Positions 32,586 to 48,115 of a stretch of DNA of 64,000 bases are shown here, in pieces. How positions within the stretch are numbered: the stretch's first letter is position 1; each line of letters begins with the position of its first letter. Position numbers and translations under genes: made by a program. Origin of the DNA: Myxococcales bacterium (GTDB lineage Bacteria; Myxococcota; B64-G9); contig JAAZNF010000051.1 in the NCBI GenBank assembly GCA_012798435.1, forward strand, positions 62,001 to 126,000, written 5' to 3'. The notes beneath the pieces are model-generated. The model was given only the letters and a program-made list of their open reading frames with translations. It was not told the origin of the DNA and did not search any database.

Positions 32586-35500
32586 ATGTTCGTAAGCCGT
32601 TTGCGGTGGACCTGTCTTGCAGCCCTGGTGGTCGCGGCTTGTTCGGATTCCACCACGGGACCGGATTCGTCCGTGATCACCTGCGATCGGGACGAGGCAT
32701 GTCCTTATGGCCAGTACTGTGACGAGGGCGTGTGCAAAGACGTGGTGAACAAGTGCGGAGACGGTGGCAGTTGCCCCGACGGTTTCACCTGCCGGCACGG
32801 CGCTTGCGTCCCGGTCGAGAGCGACGGCGACGCCGGGACGGACGCAGACGGGGAAGGGGATGGGGGAGACAGCGGGGCCGATCTGGGGCCCCAGCCCGAC
32901 GTCTTCGTGCAATCACCCGCCGGTTCCGGTGAGCCGCCAGTGTACCAGCTCAACTTCGGCAACGTGCTCGTCGGGCAGACGGTCTCGGGAGAGATCATCC
33001 TGGGGAACCGCGGTACGGCCGACCTGCGCATTCTCCAGTTGAACTTCGAGATGGGTCCGGGCGCCGCGGACTTCTCCCTGCCGCCGGAGATCGTGAGTTC
33101 TTTGCCCATCGTGGTGACGCCGGGCGCGCAGGCCACCATCGGGGTCAATTACCGCGCCTCGGACGGGCTCACCGACAACGCCATCCTGGACATCATCTCC
33201 AACGACCCCGACGAGCCCCTGTTGAAGATCCATCTCCTGAGCGAGTTCAAAGGAGAGCCGGGAGCGACGGTGTCGCCCCTTGCGCTCCAGTTCGGGGACG
33301 TGCCGGTGGGTGAGGCCAGCCAGCCCCTGTCCTTCCTGATCTCGAACCAGGGCTCCGGCAACGCGGTGCTGACCCTCCAGGACGTCCGCATGGAGATCCC
33401 CGCCAACCCCGACTTCTCCGTTGCGGTGCAAGACGCGAACGGCGATCCGGTGACCTTCCCCGCGCTGGTCAATCGCGGCGATGCTCTCACCGCCCGGGTG
33501 GTCTTCCATCCAACGATCAAGCAGGCGCTCTCGGACAACGTGGTAGTGATCTCCGACGATCCCGATCCCGCGGACCAGCAACTTAAAGTCGCGGTGAGCG
33601 GGAACGGGGTCACCGGCGATCTCTCCGTCCAGCCCAGCCCGGCCGACCTGGGCCGGGTCCGGGTCGGTCGGCACGGCGAGCTTACCCTCGTCATCTCGAA
33701 TGCCGGCGGTGCCGATTTCTCGCTCACGGGACTTGCCCTCGTCGGCCTGAGCCAGGACTGGAGCCTTTCCAGCGCCGATCTGGATATCGCCAATCTCGGG
33801 ACCAACCCGCACCTGCTCCAGCCGACCCAATCGGTCACGATTCTGCTCGGGTTCGATCCACGCGACGCCGGCTTACAGGAGGGCCACCTGGAGATCAGCA
33901 ACACCTCGCCCGAGCCGCTGCGGCAGGTGATGGTTCGTGCGACCGGGTACATCCCGCCGCGCGTGCGCACCATCCCCGACCCGGCGTCACTCGTCTTCGG
34001 TAACGTCCAATTCGACATGCTCACCGGACAACGCGAGACCAAGGAGCTGGAGCTCGCCATCGAGAATATAGGCGGCGAACCGTTGCACCTGACCCAGATC
34101 CAGCGCTCCTCGTCGACCAGCAGCGAGTACACTTTCCGGCCCGCCTCGGTGCCCCCGGTCGACGTGGGGGAGCAGACGTCGCTGCGGATCGCCTTCGCTC
34201 CCCAGAATGACGGCCCCAAGCTGGGCGCCCTGCTGGTGGACACCGACGATCCGGACCTCTCTCTGGAGGGGGTCGTCGGTAGGTTCCAGATCGACATGTC
34301 CGCCACCGGGATCGACCCCACCATCTTCGTCTCCCCGGCCTCGCAGATCGTCTTCGGCAACGCCTACCTCGGTCGTCTGGTGTCAGCGGACGTCACCATC
34401 CGGAACGCCGGCCTCGGGCCGCTCGTCCTCAACGAGATCCTGCTCACCCCGGGGAGCGCCTCGGAGTTCTCGCTGGACAACCTTCCGGCGCTGCCCATGG
34501 TGATCGCCAACCCCATGGTGGAGGTGAAATTCCAGGCCCGCTTCCGGCCTCTCAACCTGGCCGGTTTCAGCGGCGCCCTGGCCATCCGCTCCTCGGACCT
34601 GGGCAACCCGGAGGTGGTGCTGAACCTCTCCGGCACCGGGGTCGGCTGCCCTGCGGGCCGCATCGACTGCAACGGCGATCCCCAGGACGAATGCGAGACG
34701 CCCTGCGTTCCGACCGGGGTCGAGGTGTGTGACCTGCGAGACAACGATTGCGACTGCGATACTGACGAGGACTTCGACCTCAACACGGACATCAACAATT
34801 GCGGTGTGTGCGGGCGAGTGTGCAGTTTCCCGCACGCCCAGGCCGCCTGCCAGAACCGGGTCTGTGTCCTCTTGACCTGCCTGGAAGGCTGGTCCGACTG
34901 CGACAATGATCAGGTCACCGGCTGCGAGACGCACACCAGCGTGGACGTCAACAACTGTGGCCAGTGCGACCAGGTGTGCCAGTTCGCCCACGCCAGCGCC
35001 TCCTGTCTGGCCGGGCAGTGCGTGATGGGTAGCTGCGAGAACGGGTACGCCAACTGCAACTCGGGCACGACCGACGGCTGCGAGACAAGCATCTGGAACA
35101 ACGTGGACAACTGCGGCAGCTGCGGCTTGCGCTGTCAGTTCCAGAACGCGGTGGCGCGCTGTCTGGGCACCACCTGCGACCTGGACTACTGCCTGCCGGG
35201 CTTCGCCAACTGCAACTTCCAGGACGGTGACGGCTGCGAGGTCAACCTGCTCACCGATCCCAACAACTGCCAGACTTGCAACCACGTCTGCCCCTCGTCG
35301 GGAGGCACGCCGGTCTGCAACAGCGGGATCTGCGGCATCTCCTCGTGCAACCCCGGCTGGGCCGACTGCGATCACGACGGGGTGTCCTGCGAGACGCAGA
35401 CGTCGGCAGACGTCAACAATTGCGGCGCCTGCGGCAACATGTGCTCGCTGGACCACGCCACGGCTCGCTGTGTGAACTCCACCTGCGAGGTGGACACCTG

Positions 35501-36200
35501 CGCTAACGGCTGGGGCAACTGCGACTCCCAGCATCCGAACGGCTGCGAGCGAAACCTCACCAACGACCCGGCCTACTGCGGCTTCTGCGACAACCAGTGC
35601 AGCTTCGCCCACGCCACGCCCCTGTGCCAGGCCTCCACCTGCACGCTTGGGCCGTGCGACCCCGGGTACTACAACGCGGACGGGAACCCGACAAATGGCT
35701 GCGAGTGCCACGCCGACACAGTGTCCGACGTGTGCGACGATGCGCTGATCACCGACCTCGGCATCCTGACCTCGGGCCAGACGCGCCAGGCGAGCGGGAA
35801 CCTCATCCCCATCCTGGACGAGGACTGGTACACCTTCACCGCCCCCGACAACCATACGGCGGATGGGACCAGCGGTACGGATTTCTATCACGTTCGAATC
35901 ACCTTCGATCCCGGCAGCGGCAATCCCGACGGGGAGTTCGCCTTCGAGATCTACCGTAGCCCCAACCCCGGTGCCGGCTGCGCCGCCAAGGGCTCGCCGG
36001 TGTGTTCAATGCCGGATACGACCTACGACTACTACGCGCTGACTCCGCCGCAAACGCAATGCCGCACCTCAGGCGCCACGACCTCGCCCGGCCCGCCGCT
36101 GTGCCGCGACGACTCCTCGAGGTACTGGATCCGGGTATACCGAGTGGCCACCCAGGTCACCTGTTCGAGCTACATCCTCAACATTTCCTTCACGCAGTAG
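32586..36200 (+). CDS. Large surface lipoprotein with immunoglobulin-like (ASH-type) and MopE-like repeats
   Basis: 1204 residues. The lipoprotein signal MFVSRLRWTCLAALVVAAC is followed by a cysteine-rich segment (CDRDEACPYGQYCDEGVC) and a Gly/Asp stalk. About residues 110-690 hold six or so beta repeats of the choice-of-anchor D/ASH kind, each with a YQLNFGNVLVGQ- or LQFGDVPVGEAS-like start. Residues about 690-1050 are MopE-type units (CDLRDNDCDCDTDEDFDL, then repeated NNCGxCGxxC). The C-terminus has a pre-peptidase-like beta domain (DEDWYTFTAPDNHTADG). GAGGAGGCGGCA precedes the ATG. Known relatives are surface or secreted and may bind metal; here the role is unknown. Confidence 0.85.
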   Translation: MFVSRLRWTCLAALVVAACSDSTTGPDSSVITCDRDEACPYGQYCDEGVCKDVVNKCGDGGSCPDGFTCRHGACVPVESDGDAGTDADGEGDGGDSGADLGPQPDVFVQSPAGSGEPPVYQLNFGNVLVGQTVSGEIILGNRGTADLRILQLNFEMGPGAADFSLPPEIVSSLPIVVTPGAQATIGVNYRASDGLTDNAILDIISNDPDEPLLKIHLLSEFKGEPGATVSPLALQFGDVPVGEASQPLSFLISNQGSGNAVLTLQDVRMEIPANPDFSVAVQDANGDPVTFPALVNRGDALTARVVFHPTIKQALSDNVVVISDDPDPADQQLKVAVSGNGVTGDLSVQPSPADLGRVRVGRHGELTLVISNAGGADFSLTGLALVGLSQDWSLSSADLDIANLGTNPHLLQPTQSVTILLGFDPRDAGLQEGHLEISNTSPEPLRQVMVRATGYIPPRVRTIPDPASLVFGNVQFDMLTGQRETKELELAIENIGGEPLHLTQIQRSSSTSSEYTFRPASVPPVDVGEQTSLRIAFAPQNDGPKLGALLVDTDDPDLSLEGVVGRFQIDMSATGIDPTIFVSPASQIVFGNAYLGRLVSADVTIRNAGLGPLVLNEILLTPGSASEFSLDNLPALPMVIANPMVEVKFQARFRPLNLAGFSGALAIRSSDLGNPEVVLNLSGTGVGCPAGRIDCNGDPQDECETPCVPTGVEVCDLRDNDCDCDTDEDFDLNTDINNCGVCGRVCSFPHAQAACQNRVCVLLTCLEGWSDCDNDQVTGCETHTSVDVNNCGQCDQVCQFAHASASCLAGQCVMGSCENGYANCNSGTTDGCETSIWNNVDNCGSCGLRCQFQNAVARCLGTTCDLDYCLPGFANCNFQDGDGCEVNLLTDPNNCQTCNHVCPSSGGTPVCNSGICGISSCNPGWADCDHDGVSCETQTSADVNNCGACGNMCSLDHATARCVNSTCEVDTCANGWGNCDSQHPNGCERNLTNDPAYCGFCDNQCSFAHATPLCQASTCTLGPCDPGYYNADGNPTNGCECHADTVSDVCDDALITDLGILTSGQTRQASGNLIPILDEDWYTFTAPDNHTADGTSGTDFYHVRITFDPGSGNPDGEFAFEIYRSPNPGAGCAAKGSPVCSMPDTTYDYYALTPPQTQCRTSGATTSPGPPLCRDDSSRYWIRVYRVATQVTCSSYILNISFTQ

Positions 36201-36296: not shown

Positions 36297-36806
36297 ATGA
36301 GCCGTGCACGTTCTGGGAAGTCTGGCCAACCCTCCGGCCGCTTCGAGGTGCTGGTGGATGAGAAACTGTACCCGCGAGAGGTGAGTTTGGCCGCGGCGTA
36401 CCGCTTCCTCGACCGTTTCTACGTCCGAGCGGAGCGAGTGCCGCCGGAGCGGTTGCGGTTCACATTCAAACCTCGGCCCTCGGCCACGGAGATGGCCCCG
36501 GACGGTATCGAAGATTCATTTCATGACGAGCTTCTGCAGCAGCTCATGCGCCATCAGGTGGCAGAGGCCACAGCCGGAATACGCGAGGTCCTGGTTCGCA
36601 CCGCGCTCCAGGCCGCCGAGGGAAACCCTACGGCATTGGATGGAAACGCCGGGGGCTCGGATACCGCCGGCTACCTAGACGATCCCCTCGGGATCGCGGT
36701 TCCCTGGGAGGAGAAATATGGCACCGCGCAAGCGGAGTGCGGCTGCGAAGACAGTGTCCCCGAGCCGACAAAGAAGAAGCGCAGACAAGGCGAGCGGAAA
36801 AAGTAG
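36297..36806 (+). CDS. hxsD: HxsD-like protein (His-Xaa-Ser system), long form
   Basis: 169 residues. Residues 12-100 match the HxsD pattern: VLVDEKLYPREVSLAAAYRF, then a beta turn and SFHDELLQQLMRHQVAEATA, with GIREVLV after it. HxsD is known only as a conserved partner of the HxsB/HxsC radical SAM enzymes in the His-Xaa-Ser system; its action is not established. The C-terminal 60 residues (Gly/Ala/Asp then Lys/Arg) are not part of the family core. GGGAGG precedes the ATG at 36297; upstream in-frame codons lie in the promoter. The second HxsD-like gene begins inside its end. Confidence 0.75.
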   Translation: MSRARSGKSGQPSGRFEVLVDEKLYPREVSLAAAYRFLDRFYVRAERVPPERLRFTFKPRPSATEMAPDGIEDSFHDELLQQLMRHQVAEATAGIREVLVRTALQAAEGNPTALDGNAGGSDTAGYLDDPLGIAVPWEEKYGTAQAECGCEDSVPEPTKKKRRQGERKK

Positions 36807-37017
36807 CCGCCATGAGCTGATCCTGGACGCGGTGGTGTACCCGCGCGTTGCGGTGGAAAAGGCCGCCCGAGAATACCGTGCCCTGGCAAAGATCCGCGTC
36901 GAGAGCACCCCCGAGCATCACAGCATCCGGTTTTCCAGGATCGTGGCGGAGGATCCAGCAGAGCTTCTGGACGATTTTGCCAACTTCGTGCTGATTGTCA
37001 CAGTGAGCGAATCATGA
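36718..37017 (+). CDS. HxsD-like protein, short form
   Basis: 99 residues: a basic N-terminus of about 30 residues, then ELILDAVVYPRVAVEKAARE, a short strand SIRFSRIV, and a C-terminal LLDDFANFVLIVTVSES. This matches the first half of the HxsD fold and a typical EF-NYVL-like end, so I take it as a shorter paralogue. GGAGGAGAAAT gives a strong ribosome-binding site. The gene overlaps the first hxsD by 89 bp in another frame and its stop overlaps the hxsB start (ATGA). The two may form a heterodimer. Confidence 0.65.
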   Translation: MAPRKRSAAAKTVSPSRQRRSADKASGKSSRHELILDAVVYPRVAVEKAAREYRALAKIRVESTPEHHSIRFSRIVAEDPAELLDDFANFVLIVTVSES

Positions 37018-38600
37018 AGAAAACCGCTCAGAACCTGATCGATGCATCGAAGCTGCTCCCGATGCGGTTTCGGCGACTCGGAAAAAGGGTCCTGGTCACC
37101 GGGGAGGCCGGTGGCTTCGCTCTGTTGGGGGCTGGAGACTTCCGGCGCTTTCTGGAGGGAAAACTGCGCGCGGGCCCGGCCTATCGAGAGATGGTTCGCG
37201 CGGGGCTTATCAAAGATCCCAAGGTCGAGCGTGCCCTGGTCGAGCGCCTGCGCCGGCGGTGCGAGCATGTCACGCTGGGTCCATCGCTGCACATCGTCAT
37301 CTTGACTCTGCGGTGCAACCAGGCCTGCGTCTACTGCCACGCCAGCCGTAAATCGCCCACCGCGCGGGGCTTCGACATGAGCCGGGCCACGGCCGCGCGG
37401 GTGCTGGACGTCATCTTCCAGAGCCCCTCGCCCAGCCTCACCATCGAGTTCCAGGGAGGCGAACCCAGCCTCAACTTCGATGTGCTGCGCTTCATGGTGG
37501 AGGAGGCCTATCGCAGAAACGAGACGGCCCGGCGCGAGCTCTACTTCAGCCTGGTGAGCAACCTGAGCCCGTTACGCCAGGCCGAGGTCGATTTCTTGAT
37601 CGACAACGGCGTGATGGTGTGCACCTCCATCGACGGCCCGGCGCCGCTCCACGATCGCAACCGCCACCTGGCAAAACGCAGCGCCTACCAGGAAACCCGC
37701 CGGGTCATGGCGCTCTTTGAAGAAGGTTACCTCCGTCGCGGCCTGGACCCGTCGCTGGCCTTCGTCAACGCGCTGGCAACAATATCGCGGGCGGCGCTGT
37801 CGCAACCCGAGGCCCTGGTGGACGAGTACGTGGCCCTGGGACAGAAGGCCGTTCACCTGCGGCCCCTCAATCCGTTCGGGATGGGATACCACGTGTGGCA
37901 ACGCGAAGGGTACAGCGCGCAAGAGTTCCTGGACTTCTACCGCCGCGCGCTGGACCACATGATCGCGCTCAACCGGCGGGGCGTGGAGATCATGGAGAAG
38001 ACCGCCTCGCTCATGCTCACCCGCATCCTCACCGACCAGAACCCCAACTACATGGACCTGCGCTCGCCCTGCGGCGCGGCCCTCGGCCAGCTGGCCTACA
38101 ACCACGATGGCCGGGTGTACACCTGCGACGAGGGTCGCATGGTCGGGGCCATGGGCGACGACATCTTCTGCATCGGCGACGTGCGCAAGGACGACTACGC
38201 CGCCATCATCCGCAACCCCGGCGTCCGCGCCATGTGCGTGGCGTCCTGCCTCGAGGGGCTGCCCGGCTGCTCGGATTGCGCCTACGCTCCTTACTGCGGC
38301 GTGTGTCCGGTCTACAACTACATCATGGAGCGAGATCTGGTGGCGCGGGCTCCGTTGAACGATCGCTGCCGCATTCAGATGGGCATCTTCGACATGCTCT
38401 TCGAGCGCATGCGGGACCCCGCCGTCTTGAAGTTCTTTCGCAAGTGGACCGAGAGCCGAGACCGCTCCAGCGTCTACCGCCGGCTGTCCCAGCGAGGCCA
38501 GGTTTCGAAGAACTCTCGTGCCTCTTCATCGAAGACCCCCAGGGCTACCCCACGGCAGTCCCCCCGCAAGCGTAGGAATGCCTCCAGCGCGCGCAGATAG
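37014..38600 (+). CDS. hxsB: HxsB-like radical SAM/SPASM maturase
   Basis: 528 residues. The N-terminal 90 residues have the HxsB-type start FRRLGKRVLVTGEAGGFALL. The radical SAM motif is CNQACVYC (Cys101, Cys105, Cys108), followed by the GGEP motif in EFQGGEPSLNF. The C-terminal SPASM-type cysteines include SPCGAALGQLAYNHDG, VASCLEGLPGCSDCAYAPYC and GVCPVYN, enough for two auxiliary Fe-S clusters. HxsB enzymes modify His-Xaa-Ser repeat peptides in a way not yet known. The last ~40 residues (Ser/Arg/Lys-rich) lie opposite the end of the minus-strand gene 38474-39454 and look unselected. Confidence 0.8.
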   Translation: MKKTAQNLIDASKLLPMRFRRLGKRVLVTGEAGGFALLGAGDFRRFLEGKLRAGPAYREMVRAGLIKDPKVERALVERLRRRCEHVTLGPSLHIVILTLRCNQACVYCHASRKSPTARGFDMSRATAARVLDVIFQSPSPSLTIEFQGGEPSLNFDVLRFMVEEAYRRNETARRELYFSLVSNLSPLRQAEVDFLIDNGVMVCTSIDGPAPLHDRNRHLAKRSAYQETRRVMALFEEGYLRRGLDPSLAFVNALATISRAALSQPEALVDEYVALGQKAVHLRPLNPFGMGYHVWQREGYSAQEFLDFYRRALDHMIALNRRGVEIMEKTASLMLTRILTDQNPNYMDLRSPCGAALGQLAYNHDGRVYTCDEGRMVGAMGDDIFCIGDVRKDDYAAIIRNPGVRAMCVASCLEGLPGCSDCAYAPYCGVCPVYNYIMERDLVARAPLNDRCRIQMGIFDMLFERMRDPAVLKFFRKWTESRDRSSVYRRLSQRGQVSKNSRASSSKTPRATPRQSPRKRRNASSARR

Positions 38601-39454
38601 AGTGAGTCGATGGGGGTCCGCTCGGCGTATTCCGTGAAGGACAAGCGTCTTGCGAGCAGGCGCCGGGTCAAGATAGGGGCGCGACACTCGCTCGAAAGGC
38701 GTTGGTCTGGGCCGGAAGCGCTGCACGCCTCCAAATCGTCGCGCTCGAACGCCGCGCAGTTCGATTCGAATCGTTCGAGCGGGAGAAAAAGTTCGAGTTC
38801 GCAAGGCAGCGCGGCTTCACCCAGGACCGTGCGACACGATGTCTCGGCCAGTCGCGCCAGGTCGCCGAGCAGCGAACGGGCCGCGGGGGAACAGAGCCGA
38901 GCATATCCTCCCACGTCGATCACCGGGGTCTGGCACCGTCCGGCGAGTTCGGGGTCCCAGGCCGCGATGGCGGCGCAGTCTGCGGGTTCCGGCCGTTGCA
39001 GGACGGCGCATACGTTCGCCGCGACAATCGCCGGGATGATCAGGTGTCGTGTCTGCGGTCGAAAAGCGACATTCAGTAACGCCTGCCGGGCTTGAGCCGC
39101 GCGGTCGAGCCAGGGCGCCAACCGGGCAGGGGAAAGCCGATCAGGGTCGCCCGGCACTCCTTTCTCGATTTCGCCGCGCAGCGAAAGATAGACGCTCCAG
39201 AGCTCAGTCTTTTGCGCGTGTCGTACCAGCGCCGGCACGACCTGGGAGCGGACGGCCCCCTCCAGCTCGCGTAGCCCATATTGCAGATACCACATCCAGT
39301 TTTCGATGCGTACCAGAATGAGCTCACGGTCGCCGGCGCAGTACCGCGCCTCAAGCCTCGACGCCGGTAGCAGGAGAAGTCCCGCCAGGCACAGGGCGAG
39401 CGCGTGCGATCCGGGTGGGCGGTGCTGGGCGGTCGGGTTCGAGCATGCACACAT
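38474..39454 (-). CDS. Exported cysteine-containing protein of unknown function
   Basis: 326 residues. A signal peptide runs through about residue 37 (HALALCLAGLLLLPASRLEA). The mature part is helical with nine or ten cysteines spread in pairs (for example CAVLQRPEPADC, CELELFLPLERFESNC), which fits disulfides outside the cytoplasm. No known domain. It lies antisense within the cluster: its last 127 bp overlap hxsB, and its start is 116 bp from that of the nitrogenase-like ATPase gene, divergent. The composition is protein-like throughout, so I keep it as real, but a role in the system is only suggested by position. Confidence 0.55.
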   Translation of the reverse strand: MCACSNPTAQHRPPGSHALALCLAGLLLLPASRLEARYCAGDRELILVRIENWMWYLQYGLRELEGAVRSQVVPALVRHAQKTELWSVYLSLRGEIEKGVPGDPDRLSPARLAPWLDRAAQARQALLNVAFRPQTRHLIIPAIVAANVCAVLQRPEPADCAAIAAWDPELAGRCQTPVIDVGGYARLCSPAARSLLGDLARLAETSCRTVLGEAALPCELELFLPLERFESNCAAFERDDLEACSASGPDQRLSSECRAPILTRRLLARRLSFTEYAERTPIDSLYLRALEAFLRLRGDCRGVALGVFDEEAREFFETWPRWDSRR

Positions 39455-39510
39455 GAGCCCTGATAGGCTAGGTCAGAGATCGGGATCCATGCAAGCCGCT
39501 GGAACCCAAC

Positions 39511-39539
39511 GTGGAATCCACACGGGCCTGTGCTACAAT
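39511..39539 (+). promoter_or_regulatory. Extended -10 promoter with operator-like palindrome for the nitrogenase-like genes
   Basis: TGCTACAAT (39531-39539) is an extended -10, ending 30 bp before the TTG start at 39570. No -35 exists at the expected place; instead a perfect palindrome GTGGA-A-TCCAC covers 39511-39521, where a repressor or activator could sit. A good ribosome-binding site (GGAGGA, 39555-39560) follows. Confidence 0.5.
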
Positions 39540-39569
39540 CCGGGCGCGAACGACGGAGGACATCGCATC

Positions 39570-40385
39570 TTGGAAACCATCGCTTTCTATGGCAAGGGCG
39601 GCATCGGAAAATCCACCGTGGCCGCGGGCGTCAGCCTGGCGTTGGCGCGCGCGGGCCGCCGCGTGTTGCATGTGGGTTGCGATCCCAAGCACGACTCCAC
39701 CGCGGTCATCGCCCGCGGGGGACCGACACTCACCGTGCTGGAGCAGCTCTTCCGACGCCCGGTGGAGGCGCTGCGGCGCGAGGACATCGTCATGCCGGGC
39801 GTCTTGGGCATCGACTGCGTGGAAGCCGGCGGTCCCGAGTCCGGCGTGGGCTGCGGCGGACGAGCGGTTTCCCGTATGTTCGAGATCTTCGAGCAGCTCG
39901 ATATCCTGGATCCCAACCGATACGACGTGGCCATCTTCGACGTGCTCGGCGACGTGGTGTGCGGAGGATTCGCCGCACCGCTTCGCGCCGGGATCGCCCC
40001 CAAGGTGGTGATCGTGGCCTCCGAGGAGATGATGGCGGGCTACGCGGCCAACAATATCGCGGGAGCGGTCAAGAACTACCTGCCGAACGGCGTCTGCCTC
40101 GCCGGGATGGTGGTCAACCTTCGGGACAACCACGCGGATCGTGCGCCCATCCGACGGTTGGCCAAGCGTCTCGGAACACGTATTCTGGCCGAGATCCCGC
40201 GCAGCGCCGTCATCCAGAAGGCCGAGTTGGAACGCCGCTCGGTGGTCGAGATGGCGCCGCGCTCCGAAGCGGCCCGCGTCATCGCCAAGTTGGCCGAGAC
40301 CATACTGCGCATCAACAAACGAAAGTGTCGGCCGCCGCGCCCGCTGGATCTCGAGGGCGTGCGCGCGGTGATGCGGGGAACGTGA
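39570..40385 (+). CDS. NifH/BchL-like ATP-dependent electron-transfer Fe protein
   Basis: 271 residues from a TTG start preceded by GGAGGACATCGCATC; the frame is open to 39306 but only the TTG gives the normal family start (ETIAFYGKGGIGKST, residues 2-16, the P-loop). The two cysteines that hold the bridging [4Fe-4S] cluster of the dimer are present: Cys95 in GVGCGGRAV and Cys131 in LGDVVCGGFAA. The arginine of known ADP-ribosylation follows Cys95. Such proteins hydrolyse ATP and pass electrons to a component-1 partner, encoded next. It resembles BchL, CfbC and other nitrogenase-like reductases as much as NifH. It starts a three-gene unit with 1- to 4-bp junctions. Confidence 0.88.
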   Translation: METIAFYGKGGIGKSTVAAGVSLALARAGRRVLHVGCDPKHDSTAVIARGGPTLTVLEQLFRRPVEALRREDIVMPGVLGIDCVEAGGPESGVGCGGRAVSRMFEIFEQLDILDPNRYDVAIFDVLGDVVCGGFAAPLRAGIAPKVVIVASEEMMAGYAANNIAGAVKNYLPNGVCLAGMVVNLRDNHADRAPIRRLAKRLGTRILAEIPRSAVIQKAELERRSVVEMAPRSEAARVIAKLAETILRINKRKCRPPRPLDLEGVRAVMRGT

Positions 40386-40389
40386 TGTG

Positions 40390-42495
40390 ATGCCGAACCC
40401 GACCTTCGGTCCGTTCAATCCGTTTTGCGGCAACGATGTCTTGCGAGAGGCGCTGCGCCGCCTGAACCTCGGCTGGGCTCGACATGCGCCGCTCGCGGGC
40501 CTTCGTTGCGTCCGGCTGATGCCGCGGATCGACGGCACGATGTACTTCGATCTCGAATGGAACTGCGGAAGCCTGCGCTGCGATTGGATTGGGGAGCAGC
40601 GGCGCAAGGAGCAAGTCCTACCGCAGCTTGCATTCAGTGGTCCTCGGGAGAAGAGCCCACCAGGCCTGTCGCGGCTCCGCCAGGACCTGGCTCGCGCAAT
40701 CCGCGGCTGGTGCCAGGATGAGGCGTTTCGCTTGCTTCACTTCTACAATCGCTCGCTCGAAGAGCTGGTGTTCGACGGCGAGCGCGTCGACGTCTTCTTG
40801 GCCGGGCGGTTCGTGCCCGAGCGCACGGCCTGGTTCGATTGGCGTTTTTCCGACTGCCGGCAGGAGCGGGAGGCCGAGTTTGAAATCGTCTTCACGGGCC
40901 AGCCAGGCCCGCTGCGTTTCAGGGTCGCCGCCGCAGGCGATCGGCCATCGCCAGGCGCCGAGGTGGTGTTCGCCGGGCCGCTGTTTTCGTTGGCCCTAGT
41001 GGAGGACTGCCGGTCAGTGGCGGATCGTGCCCAGGTGCGGCACCAAGTGGAGCGCTTCGTTGGCTTTTTGCTGAACCGCGCCGTGCACGGAAAGATGCGG
41101 CCGAGGACGCCGCCCGCTGCGGCGATGTCGGGCGAGCCCATCTCCACCAGCCGATTCGGCAATCCGCGGCAATGGCGCCAGTTCTTCTCGGATTTCGAGA
41201 TCCAGCGAGCGGGGATCTGCGGCATGCGTTTCACCGATCCCATTGCCTGGATCACGCACGGCGAAGGCGAGTGCACTCACGTGGAACCGACGGCCTTCCC
41301 TCGTCCCGTCTTCTACACCAACCTGCCCTGGATCGCCGAGCCCACGCCGCACGAGCCCGGCTCGGTCAGCTTCTTCACCAACCTGGCCGAGCGAGAAGCC
41401 GTGCATGGTGGCCTGACCCGATTCGAACGTGCACTGCAAGAGGCGCTCGCGGCCCCGCGGGTGCGCTTCGTCTGCGTCAACAACACCTGCATGCCCAAGA
41501 TCACCGGAGATGACGTGACCTCGGTGATCCGTCGCCACCGCAAGCACGGCGCCGTGCCCATCCTCTCCATGAACACGGACCTGAGCTCACCCGAGGCGAC
41601 TTTTTCGAATCTCTTGAACCAGGCGAAACAGGCCGCCCCTCAAGCGAGGAAGGCAAGGGCGGGGGATGCCGGCACCGGGATCAACCTGGTCGGTTTTCCA
41701 CCGACGGGATGTCGCCCGGAGATCGAGGACGCGCTCCGGCAGCTCGGGATCCGCGTCAACACCTGGCTCTTGCCCGAGGTGGGCCTGCGTGGGCTGGCGG
41801 AATATCGGCGCGGCGATTTCAGCGTGGTCTATCCCACCCAGTCCTGGATCGATGCCGCCCGCAGCATCCTGGCGCCACTGGGCCCGCCATGCGAGGTTCT
41901 GCCGGCGCCGTTCGGGCGAGAGGGCAGTCTTCGCTGGTTCGAGCGGGTGACCGCGCTGGCCCAGGTGAAGAAAGACGTACGCAAGGTTCTGGACCGGCCC
42001 GAGGAACGCCGCGAGTTTGCGGCGCTCTTTCGAGAGGCGCGAGAATTCGCTCTGGGAGTGGTGGTACCCCAGGATGAGATCTTCCGGTTGACCGATCCTT
42101 CTCGTTGCTACGGTGTACCGATGCTGCCGATGCTCGATGAAATGGGGTTTGGCCTCGAGATCCTGGTTTACGGTCCTCAGGAGGCATCGGGCCATGTGAA
42201 AGAAGCGCTGAATGCCGCTTGGGGGACCTTTAAAAATCTCAAGGTGGCCAGTTTCAATGATCCCGTGACGCTCCACGCGCGACTGCGGCAGAGTCGATGC
42301 GCCGCGGTGTACTCGGAAGTCTTCTTCGATCGTCGCCTGACCTCGGCCGGGAAGAGTCAGTTTCACCTGGGCATGATCGAGCCGGGCCTATCCGGCGCGC
42401 TCCGGACGATGCGCCGCCTCCTCGCGCTGTGCCGCTGGCCGTTCTACCGGCGTTACGCCCGTTACCTGGGCAAAACACAGGTCGCCAATCCATGA
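40390..42495 (+). CDS. Nitrogenase-like component-1 alpha-type subunit with long N-terminal extension
   Basis: 701 residues; a GTG two codons earlier is possible. Residues from about 270 on match nitrogenase component 1: GICGMRFTDP, GECTHVEPT and CVNNTCMPKITGDDV, with Cys277, Cys295 and Cys367 placed like cluster ligands of NifD/NifK, BchN/BchB and relatives. NLVGFPPTGCRPEIEDAL and later Rossmann-like segments fit the other domains. The first ~270 residues are not in known families and carry several further cysteines. It would pair with the next gene's product and receive electrons from the Fe protein. No nifB, nifE or nifN is in the window, so a plain Fe-S active site is more likely than an FeMo-type cofactor. 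Confidence 0.82.
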   Translation: MPNPTFGPFNPFCGNDVLREALRRLNLGWARHAPLAGLRCVRLMPRIDGTMYFDLEWNCGSLRCDWIGEQRRKEQVLPQLAFSGPREKSPPGLSRLRQDLARAIRGWCQDEAFRLLHFYNRSLEELVFDGERVDVFLAGRFVPERTAWFDWRFSDCRQEREAEFEIVFTGQPGPLRFRVAAAGDRPSPGAEVVFAGPLFSLALVEDCRSVADRAQVRHQVERFVGFLLNRAVHGKMRPRTPPAAAMSGEPISTSRFGNPRQWRQFFSDFEIQRAGICGMRFTDPIAWITHGEGECTHVEPTAFPRPVFYTNLPWIAEPTPHEPGSVSFFTNLAEREAVHGGLTRFERALQEALAAPRVRFVCVNNTCMPKITGDDVTSVIRRHRKHGAVPILSMNTDLSSPEATFSNLLNQAKQAAPQARKARAGDAGTGINLVGFPPTGCRPEIEDALRQLGIRVNTWLLPEVGLRGLAEYRRGDFSVVYPTQSWIDAARSILAPLGPPCEVLPAPFGREGSLRWFERVTALAQVKKDVRKVLDRPEERREFAALFREAREFALGVVVPQDEIFRLTDPSRCYGVPMLPMLDEMGFGLEILVYGPQEASGHVKEALNAAWGTFKNLKVASFNDPVTLHARLRQSRCAAVYSEVFFDRRLTSAGKSQFHLGMIEPGLSGALRTMRRLLALCRWPFYRRYARYLGKTQVANP

Positions 42496-43832
42496 GCTCC
42501 GACCTCGAAACCCGTTGCCGATATCCGTATCTCACCGGCGTGTATCTGGCGTTGAACGCCATTCCGGACGCTTACCTCGTGGTGGACGGCCCCAACTGCG
42601 TGTTCTTTCGCAGCGCCCAGATTCAGGGAAATCACGACTGGTGGTCCGATCTTGTGCGAAGTGATGGCCTCCACCGGGTGGCGGACACCGACTGCACCAC
42701 CGAGCGGGCGGCCATCGGGGACTCACGCCTGTTGCTGGAGCGGTTGCAGGAGGTGGCCCGGCTGCCCGATGCGAAGGTGATCTTGCTCAGCGCCATGGCC
42801 ATGGTGTCACTCACCGGAAAACAGTACGATCGCATCTTGTCTCAGCTCAATCCTCGCCCGAAGGTGCCGGTGTTGTTCGTTCCTCCCGGCTCCTTGAGCG
42901 GAGACTGGCTCGCGGGCTACGCCGCGGTCATGGATACGTTGGCGCGGGGTCTTTCCCTGAAGAGAATGCGCCGCGATCCGCGGCAGGTTGCTATCGTTGG
43001 GTATTTCTGGGATCGCAACGAGGCCGACCATCGAGGCAACCTGGCGGAGCTTCGGCGCCTGCTGGCCGGGCTCGATTTGCGTTTGACCTCTTGCTGGCTG
43101 TCGGGCACCGGCGTCCGTGGTTTGCAGGACATCGCCAAGGCGCAGACGATCTTGAGCTTTCCGTATGCCAGAGCCGCCGCTCGTATTCTCGCCCGGCGCA
43201 CCGGCGCCACACTGGTGGAATGCGATCTCCCGGTGGGTCTCGAGGCAACCTGTGCCTGGTTACGAGAGGTGAGCCGCGCCACACGAAGGCAAGACCGGGC
43301 AGAGGCGATGATCGAAAAAGAACTATCAGACGTCGTCCCGCGGCTCCAATGGCTGCTCCCGTTCGCCCTTCAGGGACGGCGCGCGCTGTTGCTGGGTGAC
43401 GCGCATCTGATGAGCGCCCTGACGAAGGCTCTTCTCGAGGTGGGAGTGGACACGGCGCTCAGGGTGTTTTGGAACGATCCTCGACCCGGAACACCGACGG
43501 CAGACGCACGAACCGTCGTGGGACCGAGCCACCGCGAGCTCGCCCAGCAGCTCGGTCGAATCATGGAAAACGAAGGTGTGGATCTGGCCCTGTCCAATAG
43601 CGACGGCTTGTTGTTCCTGTTGCGACAACAAACACCTCCGGCCGTCGTGGAGATTGGGTATCCTTCGTACCACACCCATTTCTTCCACGATGCTCCGTTC
43701 ATGGGTTTTCGCGGGATGCTGGGGCTGATCCAGCGCCTTTCCAACAGCCTGGCTCAAAAGGCGCTCCATGATGGCGCTCGCCGTCAAAACGGGGGCTTGC
43801 TGCCCCCCAGAAAGAAATTGCCGCTACCTTGA
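42492..43832 (+). CDS. Nitrogenase-like component-1 second subunit
   Basis: 446 residues. The N-terminus CRYPYLTGVYLALNAIPDAY is the usual start of a component-1 fold; Cys9, Cys36 (DGPNCVFFRS) and Cys68 (DTDCTTERAAIGD) take the places of the cluster ligands. Later segments VAIVGYFWDRNEADHRGNLA, SCWLSGTG and VVEIGYPSYHTHFFHDAP are the Rossmann-like cofactor domains; the last is close to the NifK/BchB end motif. The start overlaps the previous stop (ATGA), so the pair should be made in equal amounts. It is closer in length and layout to BchN/NflD-type proteins than to NifK. The substrate is unknown. Confidence 0.82.
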   Translation: MSSDLETRCRYPYLTGVYLALNAIPDAYLVVDGPNCVFFRSAQIQGNHDWWSDLVRSDGLHRVADTDCTTERAAIGDSRLLLERLQEVARLPDAKVILLSAMAMVSLTGKQYDRILSQLNPRPKVPVLFVPPGSLSGDWLAGYAAVMDTLARGLSLKRMRRDPRQVAIVGYFWDRNEADHRGNLAELRRLLAGLDLRLTSCWLSGTGVRGLQDIAKAQTILSFPYARAAARILARRTGATLVECDLPVGLEATCAWLREVSRATRRQDRAEAMIEKELSDVVPRLQWLLPFALQGRRALLLGDAHLMSALTKALLEVGVDTALRVFWNDPRPGTPTADARTVVGPSHRELAQQLGRIMENEGVDLALSNSDGLLFLLRQQTPPAVVEIGYPSYHTHFFHDAPFMGFRGMLGLIQRLSNSLAQKALHDGARRQNGGLLPPRKKLPLP

Positions 43833-43858
43833 CAATTGACAACGGTTTTCTCTAGTAT
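43829..43858 (+). promoter_or_regulatory. Promoter for the His-Xaa-Ser repeat peptide gene
   Basis: TTGACA at 43829-43834 and TAGTAT at 43853-43858 with an 18-bp spacer, overlapping the stop of the previous gene. A second TTGACA begins at 43836. The peptide can therefore be made apart from the enzymes, as precursor genes often are. Confidence 0.5.
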
Positions 43859-43901
43859 CTCATAGAACAGGGTGTAAGGCATTCCGCTGGAGGAGTAACC
43901 C

Positions 43902-44285
43902 ATGGCGAGAAAAAAGCTTCCGAAGCCAGAGAAGCGCTTGGATGCCTATCTTACTCCAGGTGAGAAGAAGTTGACCCGGCGTGACCTGGTCGCGAAGTCT
44001 GGAACCGCCCTGGTCCTGGCGGCAGGTGCTTCTGCCCTCATGAAAGCCAAGGGTGCCCAAGCCAACATTCTTCCTGCTGACGGCCAACTCCCCAAGGGCA
44101 GAGGGAAAAGGGGCCTTTCGACCAAGGAACTTTCTCACTGTTCGCACGGGTCCCACGGTTCGCACGGCTCCCACGGCTCGCACGGCTCCCACGGCTCGCA
44201 CGGCTCCCACGGCTCGCACGGCTCCCACGGCTCGCACGGGTCCCACGGCTCGCACGGGTCCCACGGCTCGCACGGGTCCTGGTAG
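43902..44285 (+). CDS. hxsA: His-Xaa-Ser repeat precursor peptide with twin-arginine-like leader
   Basis: 127 residues. An N-terminal basic part leads to LTRRDLVAKSGTALVLAAGA, where Arg26-Arg27 and a mild hydrophobic stretch resemble a Tat signal; a cleavage site is likely after GAQA (residue 54). A Lys/Gly-rich spacer and LSHC (Cys80) follow. The C-terminus is fifteen Ser-His-Gly units and ends Ser-Trp. This is the His-Xaa-Ser layout of HxsA, the presumed substrate of HxsB. Tat export would fit a folded, metal-loaded peptide. CTGGAGGAGTAACCC precedes the ATG. The next gene, on the other strand, ends 11 bp after it. Confidence 0.8.
   Translation: MARKKLPKPEKRLDAYLTPGEKKLTRRDLVAKSGTALVLAAGASALMKAKGAQANILPADGQLPKGRGKRGLSTKELSHCSHGSHGSHGSHGSHGSHGSHGSHGSHGSHGSHGSHGSHGSHGSHGSW
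44142..44276 (+). repeat. Fifteen tandem 9-bp units encoding Ser-His-Gly
   Basis: Each unit reads TCN-CAC-GGN; the Ser codon alternates TCG and TCC, so the DNA period is 18 bp. CAC is used for every His. The near-identity shows recent expansion by slippage, so copy number probably varies between strains. Confidence 0.9.
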
Positions 44286-44296
44286 CCGCCAGCGTC

Positions 44297-46102
44297 TTAT
44301 CGTTTTTCAAGCCGCAATAGCCAAAGAGTGCTGGACGTGTCTGCGGGGGAGTAGAACCGGCCAAGGCGCATCCCGGGCAGGTTTTCGGCGAGGCTTAAGA
44401 TCTCCTCGGGCATCAGGGTCCTGTAGTGTTCGAAGGCAAGCCGGCGGCTTGCCTTCAACCGCTTCAGGTCGTCAGGAAGCCGTTCCAGGCCGAACACGAC
44501 GTCGTCCGCGAGCAATAGAGTCCCACGAGGAGCGGTAAGTTGCGCGAGCCTCTCCAGTGACTTTCGCAACGAAGGCAGATGGGCCAGGCTGCGCAGCGCC
44601 AGCACTGCGTCGAATCGCTGCCGTGAAAGACGAGAAAGCCCGAGGGAACCCTTGACCACCTGAGCCCATGAGCGGTCCCGGCGTGGGAGCCGGCCCGGTC
44701 TGGGATCGATTCCAAGAAAACGCAAACGGCCCTGGCGCCCAAGCGGTTCGAGTGCATGGAGGTACGGCATCGATCCGCAACCGACATCGAGCACGTTGCC
44801 CGAAAGGCGGCCGAGTTCTGTGCCAAGGATGCCTTCTGCTTGCGAGAAAGAGGGCCGCTCCTCTGGTTGGTACAATCCTGGGCATTGTTGCCGGTAACAG
44901 GGACAGCGGCGACATTCATTGTGCGGCACGAGTTTTTGGAGATCTTTGGAAAAGTCTTGCGGGACCAGACGTCCCTTGGCCAGCCGGTAGATCTGCTCCC
45001 AGTCACCGATGGCAGCACTCAACGTCTCGTCGGAGAAATCGAAGGACTCCACCTGGCAACGGAAGACGCGGCCCTTCTTGTAAGATAAAAGAAGACCGCG
45101 CACCGGGTCCGGTGGTGGGCGATATCCGGCGCGGATTGCGCATCGACTTGGCACCAGGGGCTCGGAGGAATGGCCTCGGATCAGGTTGAATGAATTCGGG
45201 CCTGCACGTTTGATCGGACGAAGTTCGTGAGGGCCTCGGCGCTCGAGATACCCGCGGAAAACCCCCCGACACTTGCGGCGCAGACTACATTCCAGGCACA
45301 CGGGCGCGTGGGTGCGGTGACGATCATCGATCGGATGCCAACCCTCCTCGAAGGCCTCTGACATGAGGAAGAAACCGTCTTCACGCAGCGCTGCTTCGTC
45401 CTGCTCGAAACCCGGCATCAGGCACAAGGGAAAGCCATCCCAGGCCAACCGCCAGCTCTCCGGCTTGCTGCGGGTCGCCTCCAAAACGCGCCGCACCGCT
45501 GATGCCGCCTCGGAGATCCTCGGAACAACCGCCGAGAACTCGTCGAGAGCGTTGCCTTCGGGCTCGACAAAAGAGAACTTCAATCTGAAGCGGTCAGGGG
45601 AGGGGAGAATAGCGATGATGTTGTCCAGACGGGGCATCACATGAGCAGTCACAACGACGTTGACTGTGAGCTTTGGGACAGAAAGGTCCGCAAGGCCATG
45701 AATCGCCGTTAGGGTCTGGACGAACGAGCGGGTTTGTGTCACGGCATCGTGTGTGGCCGCATCCGGCCCGCATAGAGAAAGCTGAACGTAATCCAGTGGA
45801 AGACGTACGAGCCTCTCCATGAAATCCGGGTAAGCCAACATCCTGCCGTTGGTGACAAGGCCCATGCTCATCTTGTTCTTTTCAATCGATGTCGCGAGGC
45901 GGAAGAAATCATCACGGATGGTAGGCTCGCCACCGGAGAGCACCAGGGTCTCGGCTCCGAGCCGCCTGGCGAGCCCGATCTTTCTCTTCAGCTCCCGTGT
46001 CGAAGCATCGTGGCCGCGGTGAGGAGCGCTATGGCAGAACAAGCAGTTGTTGTTGCAGCGGTATCCGACTTTGAGGATGGCTTTTCGAAGCTGTCGGTTC
46101 AA
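44297..46102 (-). CDS. Radical SAM protein fused to a class I SAM methyltransferase
   Basis: 601 residues from a TTG start (the frame has no nearby ATG). The radical SAM motif is CNNNCLFC (Cys16, Cys20, Cys23), and GGEP is in LVLSGGEPTI. A first cysteine group (PVCLECSLRRKCRG) closes the barrel; a second, CRRCPCYRQQCPG, lies near residue 410. Then a Rossmann methyltransferase with VLDVGCGSMPYLHALEP and GIDPRPG follows to the end. Fusion suggests one peptide is modified at two sites or in two steps. It is convergent to the precursor gene, leaving 11 bp between the stops. Confidence 0.8.
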   Translation of the reverse strand: MNRQLRKAILKVGYRCNNNCLFCHSAPHRGHDASTRELKRKIGLARRLGAETLVLSGGEPTIRDDFFRLATSIEKNKMSMGLVTNGRMLAYPDFMERLVRLPLDYVQLSLCGPDAATHDAVTQTRSFVQTLTAIHGLADLSVPKLTVNVVVTAHVMPRLDNIIAILPSPDRFRLKFSFVEPEGNALDEFSAVVPRISEAASAVRRVLEATRSKPESWRLAWDGFPLCLMPGFEQDEAALREDGFFLMSEAFEEGWHPIDDRHRTHAPVCLECSLRRKCRGVFRGYLERRGPHELRPIKRAGPNSFNLIRGHSSEPLVPSRCAIRAGYRPPPDPVRGLLLSYKKGRVFRCQVESFDFSDETLSAAIGDWEQIYRLAKGRLVPQDFSKDLQKLVPHNECRRCPCYRQQCPGLYQPEERPSFSQAEGILGTELGRLSGNVLDVGCGSMPYLHALEPLGRQGRLRFLGIDPRPGRLPRRDRSWAQVVKGSLGLSRLSRQRFDAVLALRSLAHLPSLRKSLERLAQLTAPRGTLLLADDVVFGLERLPDDLKRLKASRRLAFEHYRTLMPEEILSLAENLPGMRLGRFYSPADTSSTLWLLRLEKR

Positions 46103-46216: not shown

Positions 46217-47155
46217 ATGAGCAGCGGCCAGAAATCCAGCAAAAAACCCCTTTCGGTCCCCGCTAGAATCGATCTGAAGATCGGTTTTGCCTGCAATAAC
46301 CGCTGCCGATTCTGTGTCCAGGGAGACAAGCGAGAGCGGTTTGGAAGACGCAGCGAGAACGAACTGCGAAAGATTCTCGAACAGAGCCGCGAGCGTTACG
46401 ACGGTGTGGTATTCACGGGTGGAGAGCCGACGCTGCACCCGGCGCTCGTCCGTTTGATCTCCGAGGCGCGACGGCTCAAGTATCGCTCGATCCAGATCCA
46501 GTCGAACGGCCGGATGTTCGCATATCGAGACCTGTGCATGCGGCTCGTAGAAGCTGGCGCCAACGAGTTCTCCCCGGCACTGCATGGTCACCGCGCCGAG
46601 TTGCACGACTTCCTGACGACGGTTGAGGGATCCTTCGAACAGACCGTGGCGGGTATTAGAAATCTCAAGCACCTCGGACAGTTCATAGTCACTAACAGTG
46701 TGATCACGCGGTCGAACTTCAGGCACCTTCCCCAACTGGCCGAACTACTTGTTGATCTTGGCGTCGATCAGTATCAGCTCGCTTTTGTCCACCCCGTAGG
46801 AACAGCGCTTTCCAACTTCTCTTCGATCGTCCCTCGATTCGAGATGATCGAGCCGTACGTCAAAGCCGCCCTGGATGTCGGGATATCATCTGACAAGACC
46901 GTGATGACGGAGGCAATTCCTCATTGTTTCATGGATGGTTACGAGGATTACATCGGAGAACGCATCATGCCTTCGACAAGGATTTTCGATGCAGAGGGAG
47001 TCATCGACGAGTACAGAAGATATCGTTTGGTCGAAGGCAAGGCCAAGGGACCGCCATGCGAAAAGTGCAAGAGAGACGATATCTGTGAAGGACCATGGAG
47101 GGAATATCCCGAAAGATATGGTTGGGAAGAATTTAGGTATTTCAAAAAGAAATAA
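46217..47155 (+). CDS. Radical SAM protein
   Basis: 312 residues. CNNRCRFC (Cys26, Cys30, Cys33) and FTGGEPTLHP are the radical SAM signatures; the C-terminal CEKCKRDDICEGPWREYPER forms a short auxiliary cysteine group and a conserved-looking end. It resembles other small peptide-modifying radical SAM enzymes. It does not match HxsC, whose TDRCNQLCLMC-type core and GLE motif are absent. The ATG is 114 bp from the divergent gene's TTG. GC content falls in the last third. Confidence 0.8.
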   Translation: MSSGQKSSKKPLSVPARIDLKIGFACNNRCRFCVQGDKRERFGRRSENELRKILEQSRERYDGVVFTGGEPTLHPALVRLISEARRLKYRSIQIQSNGRMFAYRDLCMRLVEAGANEFSPALHGHRAELHDFLTTVEGSFEQTVAGIRNLKHLGQFIVTNSVITRSNFRHLPQLAELLVDLGVDQYQLAFVHPVGTALSNFSSIVPRFEMIEPYVKAALDVGISSDKTVMTEAIPHCFMDGYEDYIGERIMPSTRIFDAEGVIDEYRRYRLVEGKAKGPPCEKCKRDDICEGPWREYPERYGWEEFRYFKKK

Positions 47156-47167
47156 ACATAATCATGC

Positions 47168-47180
47168 TTATGTAAACTAA
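47168..47180. repeat. 13-bp direct repeat, left copy
   Basis: TTATGTAAACTAA, ending with the first base of the radical SAM start codon at 47180; the identical sequence recurs at 48163-48175 after the gene. The two bracket a low-GC segment of about 1 kb. Confidence 0.6.
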
Positions 47181-48115
47181 TGGCCAACCTCGGATACATT
47201 CAAGTTACCAGAATCTGTAACCAGAAGTGTCTGTTCTGTTCTAATCCAGAAAACCAGCAGACATTATCTTCAGAAAAGGCTGTAGAACAGGCGAGAACTC
47301 TTCTGAAATCCGGGTACGATGGGGTGATCTTGACCGGAGGAGAACCAACTCTTCACCCCCGATTGAGAGAGATCATTAGAAGCTGTGTAAAACTGGGAAT
47401 AGCCGTTCGAATGATTACCAACGGACAGAGAACGGCGAACAGGCGATATCTCAAAGGCTTGATGGAAGCAGGTCTTGAACATCTCCATGTCTCTATTCAT
47501 TCGATGAAGGAGTCTGTTCAGGCTCATCTTACAGGAAACAGAGAGTCGCTAAAAAACATCAGGAAGACTCTTCGAATCGCTGGCAATCTCGGTCTTTCAT
47601 GTGATGTCAACACTGTGATCTGCGCCCAGAACGCCGCCCACCTCGACAAAAACGTAATCCAAATAGTGAGAGATTTCCCTCATGTTCGGCATTTCGTCTT
47701 CAACATGATTGACCCCAAAATGAACAGAGTGGAAGAGAACCCCCATACGGTTGCACGTCTTGCAGACGTCGAGTTGCCGCTATTCAGGGCGTTAAGATTT
47801 TTGAGTTCCGTTGGACGAACGTTTCGAGTCGAGCGCCTGCCACTCTGCTACATGACCGATTTCGCTTTCGCATCGACCGAGACTCGAAAGATTGTAAAAA
47901 AAGAGGAACGCACGGTTCATTTTCTCGATGAAAAAGGTTCGATCCGCCAGACAGATTTCTTTCACGAGAAGGGATTTGTGTGCAAGCGATGCTTTCTCGA
48001 TCATATCTGTGCTGGTCTTTACGATCTCGGCGGTAAATATCGAGAAGAAGAGCTCTACCCGGTCTTTGTTTCCCCGGAAGAAATCATCGAGATGATTCGA
48101 AGGCGCCGAGAATAA
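47180..48115 (+). CDS. Radical SAM protein in AT-rich DNA
   Basis: 311 residues. CNQKCLFC (Cys13, Cys17, Cys20) and LTGGEPTLHPR mark a radical SAM enzyme; an ICAGLYDLGGKYREEELYPV end and CKRCFLDHIC form the C-terminal cysteine group. The gene is much lower in GC than all neighbours and uses AGA/AAA/ATT codons freely, so it looks recently acquired from another genome. No good ribosome-binding site precedes the ATG, which overlaps the direct repeat. Its position suggests it belongs to the peptide cluster, but that is inference. Confidence 0.75.
   Translation: MANLGYIQVTRICNQKCLFCSNPENQQTLSSEKAVEQARTLLKSGYDGVILTGGEPTLHPRLREIIRSCVKLGIAVRMITNGQRTANRRYLKGLMEAGLEHLHVSIHSMKESVQAHLTGNRESLKNIRKTLRIAGNLGLSCDVNTVICAQNAAHLDKNVIQIVRDFPHVRHFVFNMIDPKMNRVEENPHTVARLADVELPLFRALRFLSSVGRTFRVERLPLCYMTDFAFASTETRKIVKKEERTVHFLDEKGSIRQTDFFHEKGFVCKRCFLDHICAGLYDLGGKYREEELYPVFVSPEEIIEMIRRRRE

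Follow-up and report, generated by a model that had tools for sequence, protein, structure and literature searches.

Members of the nitrogenase superfamily are, to our knowledge, known only for the reduction of small molecules, namely N2, chlorophyll precursors, F430 and organosulfur compounds. One set of paralogs, termed group VI, was reportedly found by Meheust et al. in 2020 (ISME J, doi 10.1038/s41396-020-0716-1) in Elusimicrobia and Myxococcales together with a suite of radical SAM neighbours, and is said to have been predicted there to reduce a tetrapyrrole. PMC9391474 and PMC11257099 refer to this group as 'putative tetrapyrrole cofactor biosynthesis'. DPOR (BchLNB) and COR (BchXYZ) pair an Fe protein with a D/K heterodimer, possess an interface cluster of the three-Cys type and show no sign of a nitrogenase-type cofactor, whilst the Mar (MarHDK; PDB 9d9u, 9fmg) and Isr enzymes act on small organosulfur compounds; in the case of IsrHDK, too, the nitrogenase-like enzyme has a radical SAM partner (PMC11423573). 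His-Xaa-Ser (Hxs) systems, as delineated by curated models, comprise only a peptide, HxsD and radical SAM proteins. To these the locus described herein adds a NifH-like Fe protein (H) and two component-1-like subunits (D and K), and its HxsC-like protein is fused to a methyltransferase.

The window, which is the whole 64,000 nt stretch of Myxococcales DNA that was analysed, was assigned to families using NCBIfam curated models with their own cut-offs, and Pfam profile searches. On the forward strand, HxsD (36297–36806, 169 aa) falls just under its cut-off (TIGR03976, 48.2 bits against 50) and is overlapped by a 99 aa HxsD-like protein (36718–37017; NF038315, 45.6 bits, cut-off 41), followed by the 528 aa radical SAM/SPASM maturase HxsB (37014–38600; TIGR03978, 477.5 bits, cut-off 370). 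Further along the same strand are H (39570–40385, 271 aa; Fer4_NifH, 272 bits), D (40390–42495, 701 aa; Oxidored_nitro, 82 bits) and K (42492–43832, 446 aa; Oxidored_nitro, 160 bits), and 70 bp past the end of K begins the HxsA4 precursor peptide (43902–44285, 127 aa; NF038313, 93.5 bits, cut-off 55). These scores bear out the gene identities proposed in an earlier note made from the letters alone, and its count of fifteen Ser-His-Gly units in the peptide is exact, as HxsA4 consists of a Tat-like leader region, one SHC and exactly 15 SHG units, and a terminal SW. Both the HxsA4 and HxsB models are passed. The locus shares HxsA4, HxsB and an HxsD-like protein with Hxs systems of the HxsA4 type, and probably also HxsD and an adjoining HxsC4-like radical SAM partner.

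The arrangement of these genes was read in the earlier note as a sign of joint action. The D and K reading frames share a 4 bp overlap, and H-D-K is placed between the maturase gene hxsB and the peptide gene hxsA4. A single operon for the whole set is, however, ruled out, as a minus-strand ORF with a signal-peptide-like start (about 38474–39454; weak coding score of 24) intervenes between hxsB and H, and a separate promoter-like site (TTGACA-18-TAGTAT, plus strand, 43829–43858; a consensus match only) precedes hxsA4. Pfam and NCBIfam profile searches matched no family to this orphan ORF. H itself has a GGAGGA ribosome-binding site (plus strand, 39555–39560) 9 bp ahead of a TTG start at 39570, and the numbering of its cluster cysteines as C95 and C131 in the earlier note fits that start.

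Beyond hxsA4, past the end of the coordinates first considered, lie a 601 aa fusion of an HxsC/HxsC4-like radical SAM protein to a C-terminal methyltransferase domain (minus strand, 44297–46102; NF038332, 98 bits, and TIGR03977, 85 bits, both below cut-offs; Pfam methyltransferase), an HxsC4-like radical SAM protein (plus strand, 46217–47155; NF038332, 172 bits, below the cut-off of 500) and a second small radical SAM protein (plus strand, 47180–48115; Radical_SAM, 91 bits). The HxsC4 and HxsC models are the best matches of these putative HxsC partners, at scores under the cut-offs. Ahead of hxsD a secreted protein is encoded (plus strand, 32586–36200) that has Ig domains of the HYDIN/ASH type according to Pfam, as well as a Cys-rich stretch; its relatives directly adjoin hxsD-hxsB in two sister genomes (L175 of G005 and L177 of G004).

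The general features of a nitrogenase-like reductase are present in the three proteins, both the P-loop and two cluster cysteines of an Fe protein and a component-1 fold with interface cysteines. H carries the P-loop GKGGIGKS and Cys95 and Cys131, which are kept in 14/14 homologues. In alignments of homologues, C295 and C367 of D are invariant, as are C36, D26 and D49 of K, with H48 of K found in 29/30. AF2 models (pLDDT 93 for K) compared using Foldseek give component-1 folds for both D and K; the top fold match of D is NifEN, and the best target-normalised TM-score of K among the matches listed, 0.82, is to DPOR subunit B. D additionally possesses an N-terminal domain of approximately residues 1–240. 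Kinship of this domain to HxsD or to the HxsB N-terminus, as a peptide-recognition domain, was considered and rejected for want of a profile match (probability <2%), and D showed no recognisable peptide-binding domain.

None of the three proteins passes a curated NCBIfam model for Nif, Bch or Cfb. Against the Nif models, scores reach 267 of 394 bits (nifH), 47.5 of 427 (nifK) and 16.5 of 654 (nifD), and nifB has no match in the genome; because of these two results nitrogen fixation is rejected. Only one other component-1 pair besides D-K is encoded in this genome. The Cfb models are likewise not reached (NF033200, 258 of 402; TIGR03282, 15 of 268). As for BchLNB and BchXYZ, likeness to them in subunit make-up is set against an H far below the BchL and BchX cut-offs (200 of 345 and 165 of 331), separate D and K clades and a lack of tetrapyrrole genes amongst the annotated neighbours of K. 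In trees, the D and K clades are separate from Nif, Bch (whose branches are long) and group IV references, with four Treponema group-IV-type subunits outside the D clade (99) and the K clade (95). Neither the Nif, Bch and group IV references of the trees nor the curated Nif, Bch and Cfb models put the proteins into a group whose substrate is established and unrelated; group IV was represented in the trees by the Treponema group-IV-type sequences, and Cfb and Mar were judged by curated models and PDB matches. By sequence, the PDB entries that D matches best are Mar chains.

With regard to distribution, a link of the H-D-K family with the Hxs system is well supported. Amongst Myxococcota, HxsB exceeds its cut-off in 12/13 K-positive genomes versus 31/195 overall (Fisher p 3.7e-10), or, counted by GTDB family, in 5/5 versus 7/31 (p 1.2e-4). 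The Elusimicrobiota sample behaves similarly, with HxsB in 8/10 K-positive genomes versus 21/150 (p 1.5e-6), rising to 9/10 (p 5.5e-8) if G294, in which HxsB is split over two frames, is counted. HxsA4 follows K in like manner. HxsB is also present in every one of 15 additional K-positive genomes; it exceeds the cut-off in 14 and is divided between two contig ends in the remaining one. K occurs without HxsB or HxsA4 in G280, and without HxsB in G001, which is 70% complete. Where D-K stands alone, an H gene is present at another place in the genome, G002 being the one exception amongst the K-positive genomes tested, and H is absent from 4/4 HxsA4-positive, K-negative genomes examined. Genomes with HxsB and HxsA4 but no K are common (approximately 13 in the Elusimicrobiota sample, and G052 and G068 in Myxococcota), and the reductase is therefore not essential to the Hxs system. 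Several genomes carry many copies of K, with about eight in G322, for which there is no obvious need in a single peptide step.

At the level of contigs, K and HxsB/HxsA4 lie about 1.4–26 kb apart on one contig in 13 genomes (combined p about 1.5e-9 when each of 8 unlinked genomes is given p = 1), so that homologues are not always found away from hxs genes. In the sister genome G005 the genes run secreted protein-HxsD-HxsB-HxsA4-HxsC, and D-K-H is found about 25 kb away. The joint action of the two systems suggested earlier is in this way favoured by near-universal co-occurrence within genomes of two phyla and by contig linkage, yet the local picture is weaker than was implied: HxsB is within 10 kb at only 6/48 K loci examined. 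Strict local linkage was for this reason dropped as the main argument, and genome-level association used instead.

From these observations it is proposed that H-D-K is an ATP-driven nitrogenase-superfamily reductase serving as an accessory tailoring enzyme in the maturation of HxsA4 and its Ser-His-Gly repeat, a reading to which an even chance of being correct is given. H would hydrolyse ATP and deliver low-potential electrons to a D/K heterodimer, within which they would pass through an Fe–S cluster at the interface that two cysteines of D and one of K would hold. D and K appear to lack the conserved ligands for a nitrogenase-type catalytic cofactor, and the substrate may hence be reduced directly, as in dark protochlorophyllide reductase. 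The most likely substrate would be an unsaturated or cross-linked intermediate that HxsB and HxsC4, together with the radical SAM enzymes alongside them, install on the peptide; that H-D-K itself acts on such an HxsA4 intermediate by low-potential reduction is a proposition evenly balanced between right and wrong. If true, a member of the superfamily tied to peptide maturation would represent a new role for nitrogenase-type chemistry, and what the uncharacterised HxsA4 system makes could be approached directly by mass spectrometry.

The neighbours of K bear on a second, tentative possibility, in which the Hxs link is real and the peptide is never touched by the reductase: H-D-K and its radical SAM partners would make a small-molecule cofactor, a reduced tetrapyrrole or other, which the His-rich HxsA4 would afterwards bind or have attached to it. 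Characterised nitrogenase-like reductases all act on small molecules, B12-binding radical SAM proteins are found near some K loci (e.g. L010, 5557–6933), the dense His array of HxsA4 is suited to a metal or macrocycle, and the numerous K and radical SAM copies in one genome suggest a long pathway. Nevertheless, K is most often neighboured by Hxs proteins and by radical SAM proteins of the peptide-maturase type, and no tetrapyrrole biosynthesis gene is present among the annotated conserved neighbours, the annotation covering part of the neighbour clusters.

It is unlikely that H-D-K reduces a tetrapyrrole or other cofactor independently of Hxs, with the co-occurrence reflecting a shared anaerobic, radical-SAM-rich life style. 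The contig linkage and the placement of H-D-K between hxsB and hxsA4 in the window argue against this, as does the two-phylum association, which survives matching for genome size (p 0.001 in Elusimicrobiota genomes of at least 2.0 Mb); the same lack of tetrapyrrole genes also applies. In its favour are the annotation under which group VI is cited, the fold match of K to DPOR subunit B and the frequency of HxsB-positive genomes without K. Very unlikely is a role in which H-D-K has no substrate of its own and is devoted to supplying the radical SAM enzymes with electrons or to maturing them, or in which it loads a metal centre onto the peptide. Such a role would suit the requirement of radical SAM maturases for low-potential electrons, the occurrence at 34/48 K loci of a radical SAM gene of Hxs type no more than 10 kb away and the existence of component-1 relatives that scaffold metal clusters (NifEN, the top fold match of D). 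Against it, K-negative Hxs genomes carry the same radical SAM suites (L188–L192), H alone would be enough as an electron donor and NifB is missing.

Should HxsA4 tailoring by H-D-K hold, the 'group VI' nitrogenase paralogs would gain a function, and for an entire orphan group the literature guess that it reduces a tetrapyrrole would give way to a testable proposal. The H-D-K family probably corresponds to these paralogs, judging by its taxa and radical SAM context: the phyla and the radical SAM-rich neighbourhood are reportedly the same, and the difference lies in the prediction of tetrapyrrole reduction made there. A literature search found no paper tying group VI to Hxs (HxsA4/HxsB), and nothing joining nitrogenase-like enzymes with His-Xaa-Ser systems or RiPPs. 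The probable prior description of the family as group VI had gone unmentioned in the earlier note. Elusimicrobia genomes matched in searches using K include GWA2_69_24 and RIFCSPLOWO2_12_FULL_59_9.

The locus lies on contig C102 of a Myxococcota-type genome of 5.05 Mb and opens with a large, Cys-rich secreted protein of 1204 aa with HYDIN/ASH-type domains (32586–36200, plus strand), which may be part of the Hxs system. Also on the plus strand, family searches identify HxsD (36297–36806), an HxsD-like protein (36718–37017) and the radical SAM protein HxsB (37014–38600). The NifH-like Fe protein, H, follows on the same strand (39570–40385; TTG start with GGAGGA ahead), and family searches place after it the component-1-like subunits D (40390–42495) and K (42492–43832), which overlap by 4 bp, and, 70 bp beyond K and on the strand of both, the HxsA4 precursor peptide (43902–44285). 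A fusion of an HxsC4-like radical SAM protein with a methyltransferase (44297–46102, minus strand) and two further radical SAM proteins (46217–47155 and 47180–48115, plus strand) complete the family assignments. HxsB is separated from H by an orphan ORF of 326 aa (38474–39454, minus strand) with a signal-peptide-like start and a weak coding score, the 3′ end of which overlaps hxsB by ~125 bp; it has no family match, and no homologue among related loci. Because this opposite-strand ORF intervenes, at least two units are indicated, HxsD–HxsB and H–D–K–HxsA4. Just upstream of the HxsA4 gene, TTGACA-18-TAGTAT is promoter-like by consensus match only.

The sister genome G005 has the order secreted protein, HxsD, HxsB, HxsA4 and, on the minus strand, HxsC4/methyltransferase, with D, K, H and two radical SAM genes ~25 kb from the Hxs genes on the same contig. 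The window keeps the flanking genes of G005, but with HxsB on one side of H–D–K and HxsA4 on the other. In this lineage the two modules are together. Relatives of the secreted protein directly adjoin hxsD–hxsB in G005 (locus L175) and in another genome, G004 (L177).

With regard to distribution, the earlier note's proposal that the two systems act together is borne out only in part within 10 kb of K, where an Hxs-type radical SAM gene is found at 34/48 loci and HxsB at only 6/48. The association is carried by genome-level counts, drawn mostly from draft MAGs and compared by Fisher tests in which phylogeny is not fully corrected, although family-level and second-phylum tests help. HxsB occurs in 12/13 K-positive Myxococcota genomes vs 31/195 (p 3.7e-10; 1.2e-4 with each GTDB family counted once). 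In the independent phylum Elusimicrobiota, HxsB exceeds the curated TIGR03978 cut-off in 8/10 K-positive genomes, plus one with a split frame, vs 21/150 (p 1.5e-6, or 5.5e-8 with the split frame counted; 0.001 for genomes ≥2 Mb, a size match using genomes with listed sizes). All 15 further K-positive genomes carry HxsB, which in G202 is seen as a pair of partial hits at the ends of contigs, and HxsA4 is found in most of the 15. K shares a contig with HxsB/HxsA4 in 13 genomes, about 1.4–26 kb apart (combined p 1.5e-9 under a simple random-placement model with eight unlinked genomes entered as 1). Among the K-positive genomes tested, only G002 lacks H; H is also missing from four genomes that carry HxsA4 but not K. 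As HxsA4 systems without H–D–K are common, the reductase is accessory. A single degenerate peptide pattern for K, run across 84,980 species genomes, picked out 26 loci, in records of Myxococcota type and of Elusimicrobia and Bdellovibrio/Oligoflexales. Because K homologues were sought in part with a single DNA pattern and a single BLAST query, distant members may have been missed. In Elusimicrobiota, one genome alone can hold some five to eight D/K sets amid dozens of radical SAM genes (L171–L173 on contig C16 of G322, and L135/L152 of G294).

None of H, D or K passes the curated Nif, Bch or Cfb models. In a tree whose references are NifDKE, BchNB, BchYZ plus four group-IV-type subunits from Treponema, D and K each form a clade (SH-aLRT 99 and 95) with no reference inside either. 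In the tree of H the separation is similar, but basal support is weak (58). Among solved structures, the closest in sequence to D are Mar chains, and the closest to K are Mar or NifK chains. The window's genome (contig C121) and others also contain another D/K pair, which is more divergent and is the deepest branch within both clades. Examples at L010 507–3139 (C121) and L050 9028–11620 lack an adjacent H, the former having B12-binding and tandem radical SAM genes nearby; D of this pair has three N-terminal Cys instead of two.

The P-loop of nitrogenase Fe proteins is present in H, as are both cluster cysteines, which do not vary among 14 homologues; the cysteines are residues 95 and 131, as originally numbered, and remain so with the TTG start at 39570. 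Across 28–30 homologues the sole invariant cysteines are C295 and C367 of D and C36 of K, whilst D26 and D49 of K are invariant and H48 nearly so. In profile alignment, C367 of D matches the P-cluster-type Cys of NifE/Mar. No conserved Cys/His pair of FeMo-type cofactor ligands was seen in the D/K alignments, C681 of D (23/28 rows) being left without an assigned role. An interface Fe–S cluster as in DPOR, without a nitrogenase-type cofactor, would fit these residues. AlphaFold2 models of K (pLDDT 93) and D (81) match component-1 folds. Profile comparison gave no assignment for the extra N-terminal domain of D, which is seemingly duplicated at L046 10383–12749 and L048 6676–8934.

From gene identities, conservation, folds, co-occurrence and linkage, we infer that H, D and K would form one cluster-carrying complex, with electrons driven by ATP, acting in HxsA4 maturation. 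The least certain element is direct action on the peptide as substrate; a less likely alternative is that the H–D–K set makes a cofactor which the peptide carries. Meheust et al. (2020) reportedly described 'group VI' nitrogenase paralogues, found in Elusimicrobia alongside numerous radical SAM proteins and at comparable loci in Myxococcales, and are said to have predicted tetrapyrrole reduction. Citing papers repeat this prediction (PMC9391474, PMC11257099). In the subset of conserved neighbour clusters annotated here no tetrapyrrole genes were present, many other clusters being apparent antisense frames or housekeeping genes. As taxa and context match, the H–D–K family is very likely group VI. 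Our literature search found no paper joining nitrogenase-like enzymes with His-Xaa-Ser; the enzyme group is therefore probably already known, and its tie to the peptide system appears new.

The HxsA4 peptide of the window comprises 15 SHG units and one SHC. Peptides of the compared genomes share the Ser-His-Gly repeat pattern, and nearly all have a C-terminal Trp, or a Tyr in the case of some Elusimicrobia. The DNA of the window's array (44142–44279) has an 18-bp period in which two codon versions of the 9-bp SHG unit alternate, and its sequence suggests a recent 18-bp duplication.
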